From Paracoccaceae bacterium (GTDB lineage Bacteria > Pseudomonadota > Alphaproteobacteria > Rhodobacterales > Rhodobacteraceae), in NCBI GenBank assembly GCA_011389685.1, contig JAABTV010000002.1, positions 1 through 64,000 on the forward strand: a stretch of 64,000 nt of DNA. Direction: 5' to 3'. The notes beneath the pieces were generated by a model. It saw only the letters and a program-made list of their open reading frames with translations, searched no databases and had not been told where the DNA came from. Of the stretch, positions 4,565 to 47,243 are shown one piece after another. The position numbers and the translations under genes are program-made. The first letter of the stretch is position 1. Each line of letters begins with the position of its first letter.

Positions 4565-6820
4565 ATGTCCAACACCAAATACACCCGCGAAGATGCGCTG
4601 CAATTCCACCTCGAACCCACCCCGGGCAAGTGGGAGGTGCAGGCCACCGTTCCCATGACGACACAGCGCGATCTGTCGCTTGCCTATTCCCCCGGCGTGG
4701 CCGTGCCGTGCGAGGATATCGCCGCCAATCCCGAACTGGCCTACGACTATACCAACAAGGGCAACCTCGTGGCGGTGATCTCGAACGGCACCGCCGTGCT
4801 GGGCCTGGGCAATCTCGGCGCGCTGGGCAGCAAACCGGTGATGGAGGGCAAGGCCGTGCTCTTCAAGCGCTTCGCCGATGTGAACTCGATCGACATCGAG
4901 CTCGACACCGAAGACCCGCAGAAATTCATCGACGCGGTCAAGCTGATGGGCCCCACATTCGGCGGTATCAACCTCGAAGACATCAGGGCCCCGGAATGCT
5001 TCATCATCGAGCAGACGCTCAAGGAAGCGATGGACATCCCCGTCTTCCACGACGATCAGCACGGCACCGCGGTGATCTGTGCCGCCGGCCTCATCAACGC
5101 GCTGCACCTCTCGGGCAAGAAGATCGAGGATTGCCGCATCGTCCTCAACGGCGCCGGCGCGGCGGGCATCGCCTGTATCGAGCTTTTGAAACGCATGGGC
5201 GCGCGGCACGAGAACTGCATCGCCTGCGACACCAAGGGCGTGATCTGGCAGGGCCGGACCGACGGCATGAACCAGTGGAAATCCGCCCATGCCATCAAGA
5301 CCGACCTGCGCACCCTCGAAGAGGCGATGAAAGGTGCCGACGTGTTCCTCGGCGTGTCGGTCAAGGGCGCTGTCACGCCCGCGATGGTCGCCTCGATGAA
5401 CGACAACCCGGTCATCTTCGCCATGGCCAACCCCGATCCCGAGATCACCCCCGAAGAGGCCCACGAGGTCCGCGAAGACGCCATTGTCGCCACCGGTCGC
5501 AGCGATTATCCCAACCAGGTCAACAACGTGCTGGGCTTTCCCTATCTCTTTCGGGGCGCGCTCGACATCCACGCCCGCGCCATCAATGACGAGATGAAGA
5601 TCGCCTGCGCCGAGGCGCTGGCCAAACTCGCCCGCGAGGACGTGCCCGACGAGGTCGGCATGGCCTATGGCCGCAAACTCAGCTTCGGGCGGGATTACAT
5701 CATCCCCACCCCCTTCGATCCGCGCCTCATTCACACCATTCCCCCGGCCGTGGCCCGCGCGGGCATGCAGACCGGCGCGGCCCGCCGACCGATCATCGAC
5801 ATGGAGGCCTACGAGCTCACCCTCAAGAGCCGGATGGACCCCACCGCCTCGATCCTGCGCAGCCTCAACGCACGCGCCCGCGCCGCACAGGCCAGAATGA
5901 TCTTTGCCGAGGGCGACGACCCCCGCGTGCTGCGCGCCGCCGTGCAGTATCAACGCTCCGGCCTGGGCCATGCGCTCGTTGTCGGGCGTGACTCCGATGT
6001 CAGGGCCAAGCTCACCGAAGAGGGGCTGGCCGACGCGGTCAGCGAACTCGAGATCGTCAACGCCGCCAACACCCCGCATCTTGATGAATACAAGGATTTC
6101 CTCTACCAGCGGCTTCAGCGCAAGGGCTTTGACCGGCACGACATCCACCGCCTGGCCGCGCGTGATCGGCACGTGTTCTCGGCGCTGATGCTGGCCCACG
6201 GCCATGGCGACGCGCTGGTGACGGGTGCGACCCGCAAATCGGCCCATGTCCTCGATCTGGTCAACCATGTCTTCGACACCGACGCCGCCCATGGCGCCGT
6301 GGGCGTGACCGCGGTGCTGCACAAGGGCCGGATCGTGCTCATCGCCGACACGCTGGTGCATGAATGGCCCGACGAAGAGGATCTCGCCACCATCGCCATG
6401 CGCGCCGCCGACGTCGCCCGCCATCTCGGGCTTGAACCCCGCGTCGCCTTCGCCAGCTTCTCGACCTTCGGCTATCCCCGCTCGGAACGGGCCGAAAAGA
6501 TGCACCAGGCCCCCGCGGTCCTCGACCGGCGCGGCGTCGATTTCGAATACGAGGGCGAAATGACGGTCGATGTGGCCCTCAACGCCCAGGCGCAACAGAA
6601 CTACCCGTTCTCGCGCCTCACCGGCCCCGCGAATATCCTCGTCGTGCCGGCGCGCCATTCGGCCTCGATCTCGGTCAAGCTGATGCAGGAAATGGCCGGC
6701 GCCACCGTGATCGGCCCGATTCTCGCAGGCGTGGACAAGTCGATCCAGATCTGTTCCTCGAACTCCACCGTGAACGACATTCTCAACATGGCGGTGCTGG
6801 CGGCCTGCAAGGTCGGCTGA
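4565..6820 (+). CDS. maeB: NADP-dependent malic enzyme with C-terminal phosphotransacetylase-like domain
   Basis: 751 aa; malic N-terminus (SLAYSPGVAVPCEDI), FHDDQHGTA, C-terminal PTA-like half (MIFAEGDDPRVLRAA). Confidence 0.96.
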   Translation: MSNTKYTREDALQFHLEPTPGKWEVQATVPMTTQRDLSLAYSPGVAVPCEDIAANPELAYDYTNKGNLVAVISNGTAVLGLGNLGALGSKPVMEGKAVLFKRFADVNSIDIELDTEDPQKFIDAVKLMGPTFGGINLEDIRAPECFIIEQTLKEAMDIPVFHDDQHGTAVICAAGLINALHLSGKKIEDCRIVLNGAGAAGIACIELLKRMGARHENCIACDTKGVIWQGRTDGMNQWKSAHAIKTDLRTLEEAMKGADVFLGVSVKGAVTPAMVASMNDNPVIFAMANPDPEITPEEAHEVREDAIVATGRSDYPNQVNNVLGFPYLFRGALDIHARAINDEMKIACAEALAKLAREDVPDEVGMAYGRKLSFGRDYIIPTPFDPRLIHTIPPAVARAGMQTGAARRPIIDMEAYELTLKSRMDPTASILRSLNARARAAQARMIFAEGDDPRVLRAAVQYQRSGLGHALVVGRDSDVRAKLTEEGLADAVSELEIVNAANTPHLDEYKDFLYQRLQRKGFDRHDIHRLAARDRHVFSALMLAHGHGDALVTGATRKSAHVLDLVNHVFDTDAAHGAVGVTAVLHKGRIVLIADTLVHEWPDEEDLATIAMRAADVARHLGLEPRVAFASFSTFGYPRSERAEKMHQAPAVLDRRGVDFEYEGEMTVDVALNAQAQQNYPFSRLTGPANILVVPARHSASISVKLMQEMAGATVIGPILAGVDKSIQICSSNSTVNDILNMAVLAACKVG

Positions 6821-6845
6821 GCCGCCCGTCCGGGGAGGGGCGGCC

Positions 6846-7727
6846 ATGACAATCTACAATCTCGGCTCCATCAATATCGACCATTTCTATTCCGTCCCGC
6901 ACCTGCCCGCACCCGGGGAGACCCTGGCCGCCACGGCCTACAGCACCGGGCTCGGCGGCAAGGGCGCGAACCAGTCGGTTGCCGCCGCGCTGGCCGGGTC
7001 GGATGTCATCCATATCGGCGCGGTCGGGCGCGATGGCGCGCCCATGGTGGCCCGCCTGCGCGATTTCGGCGTCGATTGCGCCCATGTCATCGCCACAGAC
7101 ACGCCCACCGCCCATGCCGTCATCAATATCGACCCCAAGGGCGAAAACGCCATCATCATCTTTCCCGGCGCCAACCGGACTCAGTCCCTGTCACAGCTTG
7201 AATCGGCAATTTCGGCCGCCAGCCGGGGCGACATCCTGCTCTTGCAGAACGAAACCGATCTTCAGGTCGAGGCCGCACGGATCGCCCGCGCCCACGGGTT
7301 GCGGGTGATCTATTCCGCCGCGCCCTTCGACGCGCATGCCGCTCAGGCGATGATGCCGCATGTCGATCTCATGGTCATGAACGCGGTCGAGGCCGATCAG
7401 CTCACCCGCGCGCTGAAAACCCCGCTTGCCGAATTGCCGGTTGCGCACCTGCTCATCACAAGCGGGGCACAGGGTGCCACCTGGCGCGATCAATCCACCG
7501 GCGCGGAAACCAACGCCCCAGCCTTCACCGTCACACCGGTCGACACCACCGGCGCAGGCGATTGTTTCATCGGCTATGCCGCCGCCGCGATGGATCAGGG
7601 GCTGGAACCACACGCCGCCATGCGCCTCGCCGCCGCCGCGTCCGCGCTTCAGGTCACTCGCCCCGGCACGGCCAACGCCATCCCCACATGGTCCGAGGTC
7701 GACACCTTCCTCGCCGCTCAGGACTGA
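6846..7727 (+). CDS. PfkB family carbohydrate kinase (ribokinase-like)
   Basis: NLGSINIDHFYSVPHLPAPGETL...GGKGANQSVAAA; DTTGAGDCFIGYAA. Confidence 0.92.
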   Translation: MTIYNLGSINIDHFYSVPHLPAPGETLAATAYSTGLGGKGANQSVAAALAGSDVIHIGAVGRDGAPMVARLRDFGVDCAHVIATDTPTAHAVINIDPKGENAIIIFPGANRTQSLSQLESAISAASRGDILLLQNETDLQVEAARIARAHGLRVIYSAAPFDAHAAQAMMPHVDLMVMNAVEADQLTRALKTPLAELPVAHLLITSGAQGATWRDQSTGAETNAPAFTVTPVDTTGAGDCFIGYAAAAMDQGLEPHAAMRLAAAASALQVTRPGTANAIPTWSEVDTFLAAQD

Positions 7728-8611: not shown

Positions 8612-9508
8612 ATGCAAGACCACGTCACACCCCACCAGGCCCAGGAGGACGCCCGCAACGAAGACATCCTCATCTGGCTCAACGGCCGCCTCGTCCCCAA
8701 GGCACAGGCCATGGTCAGCGTCTACGATTCCGGCTTCATGCTCGGCGACGGCGTGTGGGAGGGGCTGCGCCTCTACAACGGCACATGGGCCTTTCTCGAT
8801 GAACATATGGACCGCCTGTTCGAGGCCGCCAAGGCCATCGACCTCGACATCGGCATGACCCGCGACGAGGTCATTTCCGCCGTGTCAGAGACACAATCAG
8901 CCAACGACATGCACAGCGACGCCCATGCCCGTCTGATGGTCACGCGCGGGGTGAAAACCCGGCCCTTCCAGCACCCCTCGCTCTCGCAACAGGGGCCGAC
9001 CGTCACCATCATCATGGAGCATTCGCGCCCCTCGATCCCCCGCCCCATCCGCCTTGCCACCGTGCCCCATATCCGCGGCCTGCCGATGACGCAGGACCCG
9101 AAACTCAACTCCCATTCCAAACTCAACTGCATCCTCGCCTGCATCGCCGCCGAAAAGGCCGGTGCCGACGAGGCGCTGATGCTCGATATCCACGGCTTCG
9201 TGAACACCACCAACGCCTGCAACTTTTTCATCGTCCGCAAGGGCGCGGTCTGGACCAGCACGGGCGATTACTGCATGAACGGCATCACCCGCCAGAAGGT
9301 CATCGACCTCTGCCGCGAAAACGCCATCCCCGTCCATGAACGCAACTTCTCCCTCGTCGATACCTATGGCGCCGACGAGGCATTCCTCACCGGTACCTTC
9401 GGCGCCCAGACCCCGGTCGGCGAGATCGACGGCCGCCAGATCGGCACCGGCGAAATGGGCCCCGTCACCAAACGCCTGCGCTCGCTTTACAAGGCGCTCG
9501 TATCGTAG
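8612..9508 (+). CDS. Class IV (branched-chain/D-amino-acid-like) aminotransferase
   Basis: Start MQDHVTPHQAQ preceded by AGGAGA; PLP fold-type IV signatures (LNSHSKLNCILA..A..AGADEALMLD). Confidence 0.9.
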   Translation: MQDHVTPHQAQEDARNEDILIWLNGRLVPKAQAMVSVYDSGFMLGDGVWEGLRLYNGTWAFLDEHMDRLFEAAKAIDLDIGMTRDEVISAVSETQSANDMHSDAHARLMVTRGVKTRPFQHPSLSQQGPTVTIIMEHSRPSIPRPIRLATVPHIRGLPMTQDPKLNSHSKLNCILACIAAEKAGADEALMLDIHGFVNTTNACNFFIVRKGAVWTSTGDYCMNGITRQKVIDLCRENAIPVHERNFSLVDTYGADEAFLTGTFGAQTPVGEIDGRQIGTGEMGPVTKRLRSLYKALVS

Positions 9509-9529
9509 GGTGGGTTGTCCCAACCCACC
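9505..9529 (+). repeat. REP-like hairpin GTAG-GGTGGGTTG-TCC-CAACCCACC
   Basis: GTAG head plus perfect 9-bp stem; two related copies at 42694 and 46551. Confidence 0.75.
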
Positions 9530-42693: not shown

Positions 42694-42717
42694 GGGTGGG
42701 CAGATTGCCCACCCTAC
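42694..42717 (-). repeat. REP-like hairpin GGGTGGGCA-gat-TGCCCACCC-TAC (GTAG head on minus strand)
   Basis: Perfect 9-bp stem; same family as 9505 and 46551. Confidence 0.75.
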
Positions 42718-42754: not shown

Positions 42755-42845
42755 CGTCGAATACCGATGATGCCAAACGAGAGGGCAGCACCTGGCCGGA
42801 TGCTGCCCGGGCGGCTTTGCCGCCGTTCCGGGCGGGGGATTCAAT
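42755..42845 (+). repeat. Structured repeat family, copy A (degenerate, no clear TIRs)
   Basis: AACGAgAGGGCAGCA...TGCTGCCCGGGCGGCtttGCCGCCgttCCGGGCGGG, shared with copies B and C. Confidence 0.6.
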
Positions 42846-46249: not shown

Positions 46250-46885
46250 ATGAAGCAATCTGGGCCGATCAATCTGCGCGGCGTGGCCGTGTTCAGGGGC
46301 GCGCTGGATGCGGGCGCGCAGGCCGCGCTGCTGGACCGGGTGCGCGAAATCGCCCGGGCGGCACCCATGTTTCACCCCGAAACCCGCCGGGGCAAGCGGA
46401 TGAGCGTGCGGCTGACCAGCGCCGGTGATTTCGGCTGGGTCAGCGACCGGCGCGGATATCGCTATGAGCCGCGTCATCCGTCGGGTGTGGACTGGCCGCC
46501 GATCCCGCCGGAGGTGATCGCGATCTGGGACCGCTTCGCAGCGTCGGGCCGGGTGGGCGAATCGCCCACCCTACGGGCGCCGCAATGCTGCCTGGTGAAT
46601 TATTACGGCGAAGGCGCGCGGATGGGGTTGCATCAGGATCGCGACGAGGCGGATTTTGCGCAACCGGTGGTGTCGGTCTCGCTGGGCGATGCGGGGCTGT
46701 TCCGGGTCGGCAATATCGAGCGCGGCGGCAAGACCGAGTCGATCTGGCTGGAAAGCGGCGACGTGGTGGTGATGAGCGGCGCCGCGCGGCTGGTCCATCA
46801 CGGGGTGGACCGGATCAGGTTCGCATCGAGCAGCCTTTTGCCTGGCGGCGGGCGGATCAACCTCACGCTGCGGGTGGTGACGTGA
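46250..46885 (+). CDS. alkB: AlkB-type alpha-ketoglutarate-dependent dioxygenase
   Basis: NYYGEGARMGLHQDRDEADFAQPVVSVSLGDAGLFRVG; RLVHHGVDRI. Confidence 0.94.
   Translation: MKQSGPINLRGVAVFRGALDAGAQAALLDRVREIARAAPMFHPETRRGKRMSVRLTSAGDFGWVSDRRGYRYEPRHPSGVDWPPIPPEVIAIWDRFAASGRVGESPTLRAPQCCLVNYYGEGARMGLHQDRDEADFAQPVVSVSLGDAGLFRVGNIERGGKTESIWLESGDVVVMSGAARLVHHGVDRIRFASSSLLPGGGRINLTLRVVT
46551..46574 (-). repeat. REP-like hairpin inside alkB coding sequence
   Basis: GGGTGGGCGA-a-TCGCCCACCC-TAC, read in frame as (R)VGESPTLR. Confidence 0.75.
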
Positions 46886-47010: not shown

Positions 47011-47243
47011 TAAGCGTATCGCGGCAAATCGGATTCCTCTCATGTCCAACGAAAGGGCAGCACAGGGCCGCGGTCGGGTGCTCACGACATCGGCGTTGCG
47101 CAGTTTATCTTGCAGCGTCTTTCCCTGCTTGAAGCGACGCGCGACCCTTCGAAAGCACCCGGCCGGGGGGCGGCCCGGTGCTGCCCGGGCGGCTTCGCCG
47201 CCGTTCCGGGCGGGAGAAATTCGATAAAAGCTGATACGCCCTA
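47011..47243 (+). repeat. Structured repeat family, copy B, with imperfect TIRs (GCGTATC/GATACGC)
   Basis: Core ATGTCCAACGAAAGGGCAGCAC; long stem 47055-47070/47171-47186 and 47071-47082/47154-47165; hairpin 47188-47202. Confidence 0.7.

Follow-up and report, generated by a model that had tools for sequence, protein, structure and literature searches.

A GTAG-type REP translated in frame within alkB of a Paracoccaceae bacterium and its worn counterparts in sister species

GTAG super-family REPs, short palindromes with a stem of 5 to 13 bp, a loop of 2 to 20 nt and a total length of 20 to 40 bp, have been linked to RAYTs (REP-associated tyrosine transposases) and were described as ending genes with a TAG stop codon (Di Nocera et al. 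2013; PMC3733652). Such REPs also occur inside genes, a striking number of which act in DNA synthesis and repair, and the same paper speculated that a REP in a DNA-repair gene changes repair. Intragenic CGTC repeats of Rickettsia were identified there with RPE-4 and RPE-6. Neither alkB nor the roseobacters are named in its main text, and our searches of the literature gave no paper on intragenic REPs in DNA-repair genes and none whose title and abstract dealt with RAYTs in Rhodobacteraceae.

Here we describe a palindrome inside alkB of a marine Paracoccaceae bacterium, found in a 64,000-nt stretch of DNA (the window) and followed through the whole genome and its relatives. With a GTAG tag at the palindrome end, a 9-bp stem, a 3-nt loop and a length of 23 to 24 bp, this element belongs, by head and stem, to the RAYT-linked GTAG REP super-family. 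The explanation that we hold, as a whole, to be highly probable is a single ancestral insertion of a GTAG-type REP into alkB that was tolerated by the host protein.

The palindrome, its dispersed family and a RAYT

A preliminary description of the locus had placed a palindromic tract at 46550-46576 in the alkB frame, encoding RVGESPTLR, and both the sequence and the frame are as quoted (Table 1). On the plus strand the element reads GGGTGGGCG-AAT-CGCCCACCC followed by TAC, which on the minus strand is GTAGGGTGGGCGATTCGCCCACC. The minus strand is the best reading, giving a GTAG head at 46574-46571 and a net insert of 24 bp, and the last G of GTAG is able to pair, bringing the perfect stem to 9 bp. 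The core common to the genomic copies is 23 bp and the 24th base differs between copies, so one base of the alkB insert comes from another source. The insertion junction is ambiguous by 4 bp because CGGG stands at both the left and the right end of the insert.

Table 1. Coordinates of alkB, the REP within it and the other REPs of the window
Feature	Position	Strand	Details
alkB	46250..46885	+	2OG-Fe(II) dioxygenase, 211 aa; dnaK upstream, ABC-2 permease/cysQ-like genes downstream (synteny)
REP insertion in alkB, 24 bp	46551..46574	-	GTAGGGTGGGCGATTCGCCCACC plus one base; residues 101-109 (RVGESPTLR)
GTAG head of alkB REP	46571..46574	-	
Stem left arm, 9 bp	46551..46559	+	GGGTGGGCG
Hairpin loop, 3 nt	46560..46562	+	AAT
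Stem right arm	46563..46571	+	CGCCCACCC
Second REP	42695..42717	-	Loop/stem variant GTAGGGTGGGCAATCTGCCCACC, intergenic
Third REP	9505..9529	+	GTAGGGTGGGTTGTCCCAACCCACC; its TAG forms the stop of the class IV aminotransferase gene lying upstream

Evidence of a dispersed family is apparent throughout the genome, which measures 3.2 Mb. Matches to GTAGGGTGGGC-N(2-12)-GCCCACC number nine, against none for a reversed control, and five of these nine full palindromes are identical, among them the alkB copy; the other four all lie outside the window. GTAGGGTGGG occurs at 26 sites genome-wide, 25 of them REP-like, against seven for the reversed pattern. Copies of the family were collected by a search requiring GTAG, and the palindrome follows in nearly all of them. 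Within the window, a search for GGTGGGCGAATCGCCCACC with up to three mismatches gave three matches where 0.05 are expected, two of the three being both strands of the alkB site. The preliminary description had reported the same palindrome in intergenic DNA at 9505 and 42694. Both are related REPs, but as variants (GTAGGGTGGGTTGTCCCAACCCACC and GTAGGGTGGGCAATCTGCCCACC) rather than identical copies, and only the latter is intergenic; the former, with its GTAG at 9505-9508, is not purely so, as its TAG closes the aminotransferase gene upstream. A second dispersed repeat, apparently unrelated to the REP, consists of similar GC-rich intergenic inverted tracts (gcccgggcggcttcgccgccgttccgggcggg, gcccgggcggctttgccgccgttccgggcggg) at 47160-47215 and 42785-42840.

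REPs of this family are present as singles and as inverted pairs, for example at 71558-71610 of contig C95 and after the RAYT considered below. Long open reading frames crossing other copies have Pfam domains on one side only, or none was found, and the alkB copy is the sole REP found inside a conserved gene body in this genome.

A genome search also gave a Y1_Tnp match (G000:C30:6806-7090, E=7.6e-6) in an open reading frame of 173 aa, directly downstream of which stand two inverted REP heads, at 7228 and 7319. The TAG stop of this frame is supplied by the first of them, like that of the aminotransferase gene at 9505, and frame and REP pair together (6806-7330) are arranged as expected of a RAYT and the REPs that go with it. 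This transposase is the putative mover of the alkB REP, which it would recognize and cleave. A search of strain HLUCCO07 detected neither a RAYT-like gene nor a Y1_Tnp match, and the Y1 match of Aquicoccus porphyridii (locus L069) looks IS200-like, with different flanks; RAYT activity in the ancestor of these sister species is presumed.

Insertion into a tolerant loop of a conserved enzyme

The alkB product matches Pfam 2OG-FeII_Oxy_2 (E=1.3e-52), has E. coli AlkB as its closest solved structure by sequence comparison and, by fold comparison, aligns to 6y0q with a TM-score of 0.88. Its orthologs lie in synteny beside dnaK, and a scan of viral contigs found no AlkB relatives. H128, D130, H184, R202 and R208 are invariant in the ortholog alignment; their counterparts in E. 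coli AlkB bind the metal and 2-oxoglutarate. With the loop excluded, dN/dS against two sister species is 0.28 and 0.21, so the gene has been kept under constraint, and the protein, as far as these substitution ratios indicate, stayed under purifying selection.

Comparison of orthologs shows that the tract is a small insertion, as had been suggested. Between the invariant residues W93 and P111, 41 of 46 aligned AlkB orthologs have nine residues; the exceptions are the protein studied here (17), that of Rhodalgimonas (15), those of A. porphyridii and HLUCCO07 (13 each) and one other (10). Removal of the 24 bp leaves IWDRFAASGRAPQCC, of the same length as IWDRFAPGMRAPECC in Marimonas, and so restores the nine-residue loop. 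An ortholog alignment had been proposed as the check, with a tract universal in alkB of distant relatives counting against insertion; the tract is instead absent from alkB of all but the closest relatives. Across 149 family matches, the only AlkB proteins differing in length by more than one residue are those of Rhodalgimonas and genome G160, and the latter, flagged by its length, was rejected as a long-loop case since its loop is normal and its extra residues lie elsewhere in the protein. Together with the dispersed copies, these comparisons support insertion by a mobile palindromic element that is translated in frame.

Five of the six reading phases of the REP sequence are open, so a copy whose length divides by three can readily enter in frame. 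With 24 bp divisible by three, the gene gained eight residues net, without a frameshift or a stop. In an AlphaFold model of the protein (mean pLDDT 92.9), the insert, whose placement the preliminary description had called for, falls in a coil (97-112) that links helix 87-96 to strand 113-119 and is modelled with lower confidence (block mean pLDDT 74); the model of the short-loop Marimonas AlkB has a coil at 91-98 at the corresponding place. The REP-encoded residues are thereby predicted to occupy a helix-strand loop, and the catalytic residues are intact. Earlier comparison with E. coli AlkB had pointed to a small insertion, and the loop is indeed longer here, but that of E. coli is itself fairly long, with about 13 residues by alignment count against nine in most roseobacters, so the site tolerates changes in length.

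Probable ancestry and decay of the alkB REP

In the history that we propose, a single GTAG-type REP, presumably moved as single-stranded DNA by a RAYT, would have entered alkB in the common ancestor of the Paracoccaceae bacterium, A. porphyridii and HLUCCO07. It would have landed in the loop between helix and core strand, where AlkB accommodates added length; the palindrome would then have stayed intact in the first species and decayed in the two sisters, which also lost 12 bp next to it.

The evidence for common descent comes from the sister loci. When all 4.5 Mb of the A. porphyridii genome are searched with the loop-masked REP, the same alkB site (GCAGGCTGGGCGTTGCGCCCACC, two mismatches) comes out best, and it agrees with the REP at 20 of 24 bases. 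Over the relatives' loci, 583,098 comparisons gave no other 24-mer above 17 of 24, and random codon loops reach at most 18 of 24 in 2 million draws. That the best REP match of this genome should lie at the alkB site argues that the REP entered before the species split and has been worn down there since. HLUCCO07 keeps 15 of the 24 bases, which is unconvincing taken alone; both sister species are without the 12 bp adjoining the REP, and some substitutions are common to both. Their stems are weaker, at -15.0 and -6.6 kcal/mol, with no compensatory pairs. The alkB tree joins A. porphyridii and HLUCCO07 (85%) with the Paracoccaceae bacterium beside them, which fits one insertion, with the deletion and the decay following on the branch that leads to both sisters. 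Because the three close species branch differently in the dnaK and concatenated trees, it is uncertain in which order deletion and decay took place.

In Rhodalgimonas zhirmunskyi (locus L074, 3001-3627) the alkB loop is six residues longer, and the alkB tree alone puts it next to the Aquicoccus clade, while the dnaK, ABC-2, cysQ-like and concatenated trees place it with Marimonas (Marimonas arenosa). This conflict hints at transfer of alkB or at independent loop extension, and the loop itself may derive from the same insertion in a more worn state or from an independent event.

It is improbable that the REP is instead a recent arrival in the one lineage and that the sister species lengthened their loops independently, for unrelated reasons. 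Such an origin would suit the identity of the alkB copy to four others in its genome, the absence of the full palindrome pattern from both same-genus genomes searched, and the finding of a RAYT beside REPs in this genome only. It would, however, leave the top REP-like site of an entire A. porphyridii genome at precisely this position to chance, which did not approach that agreement, and it would require loop growth in the sisters as well, since removal of the REP here yields a short loop. An unchanged copy is also unsurprising under common descent, as the branch length of 0.084 in the alkB tree implies about two changes over 24 sites, with a probability of none near 0.13. We therefore set recent insertion aside on the worn copy in A. 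porphyridii.

Retention of the hairpin for a function, with the 9-bp RNA stem tuning how alkB mRNA is translated or degraded, or the loop altering AlkB activity, is very improbable. At -19.1 kcal/mol the stem is strong: among 5000 synonymous recodings of the nonapeptide, only 71 match its stability, and the local fold has a z-score of -2.2. Altered repair through REPs in repair genes is also a published speculation (PMC3733652). Yet a stem derived from a REP is stable by origin, which is no sign of selection, the stem decays in the sister species while the gene is conserved, and an Rfam search at the site matched no family. Our analysis found no evidence that either the hairpin or the loop is kept because it serves an end, and we likewise doubt strongly that either has been put to use in changing AlkB activity or expression. 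A chance palindrome or ordinary loop variation with no mobile element, for which one could cite the variable length of this loop across AlkB proteins (about 13 residues in E. coli), has a negligible probability and was set aside, contradicted by four dispersed copies that match it exactly over 23 bp, by the excess over expectation in the window and the zero matches of control patterns, and by the GTAG head shared with other family members.

Most likely, then, the REP in alkB is a tolerated insertion, mobilized by a RAYT, in a loop that accepts changes in length. The insertion, its identity with the dispersed family and the decayed copy at the orthologous site are observed; the RAYT as mover, the age of the event and its near-neutrality we infer.

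The alkB REP among known palindromic elements

The visibility of both an unworn insert and worn orthologs means that the fate of a protein-coding REP can be followed, from in-frame entry into a loop to stem decay and adjoining deletion, with the enzyme conserved meanwhile. The gene alkB thereby joins the DNA-repair genes reported with REPs, a pattern that may reflect chance or selection. If the loop or hairpin did prove functional, it would support the published speculation that REPs in such genes alter repair capacity.

Several described systems invite comparison. Palindromic elements of Rickettsia (RPEs) are likewise repeats inserted in frame into protein-coding genes, and the likeness drawn in the preliminary description is right as an analogy. 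RPE-1, however, is longer than the alkB REP, and RPE-4 and RPE-6 are CGTC super-family members, for which no transposase is known (PMC3733652), whereas the tag here is GTAG, not CGTC, and a RAYT is present in the genome. REPINs and BIMEs are built of the same kind of REP, and inverted pairs occur in this genome, but the alkB copy is a single REP with no inverted partner and spacer.

The closest match is to the GTAG super-family REPs themselves (PMC3733652), which share the GTAG head, a 9-bp stem, a short loop, dispersed and mostly intergenic copies, a linked RAYT gene, TAG stops supplied to some genes and a few copies translated within genes, many of them for DNA repair. The REPs of this genome agree in being dispersed mostly outside genes, in occurring singly and in inverted pairs, and in flanking a RAYT. 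What differs is that here a single 24-bp unit stands beside worn sister copies, so that insertion and decay can be traced. Intragenic GTAG REPs are thus already known, and the alkB case adds a clean, traceable example of an uncommon event.
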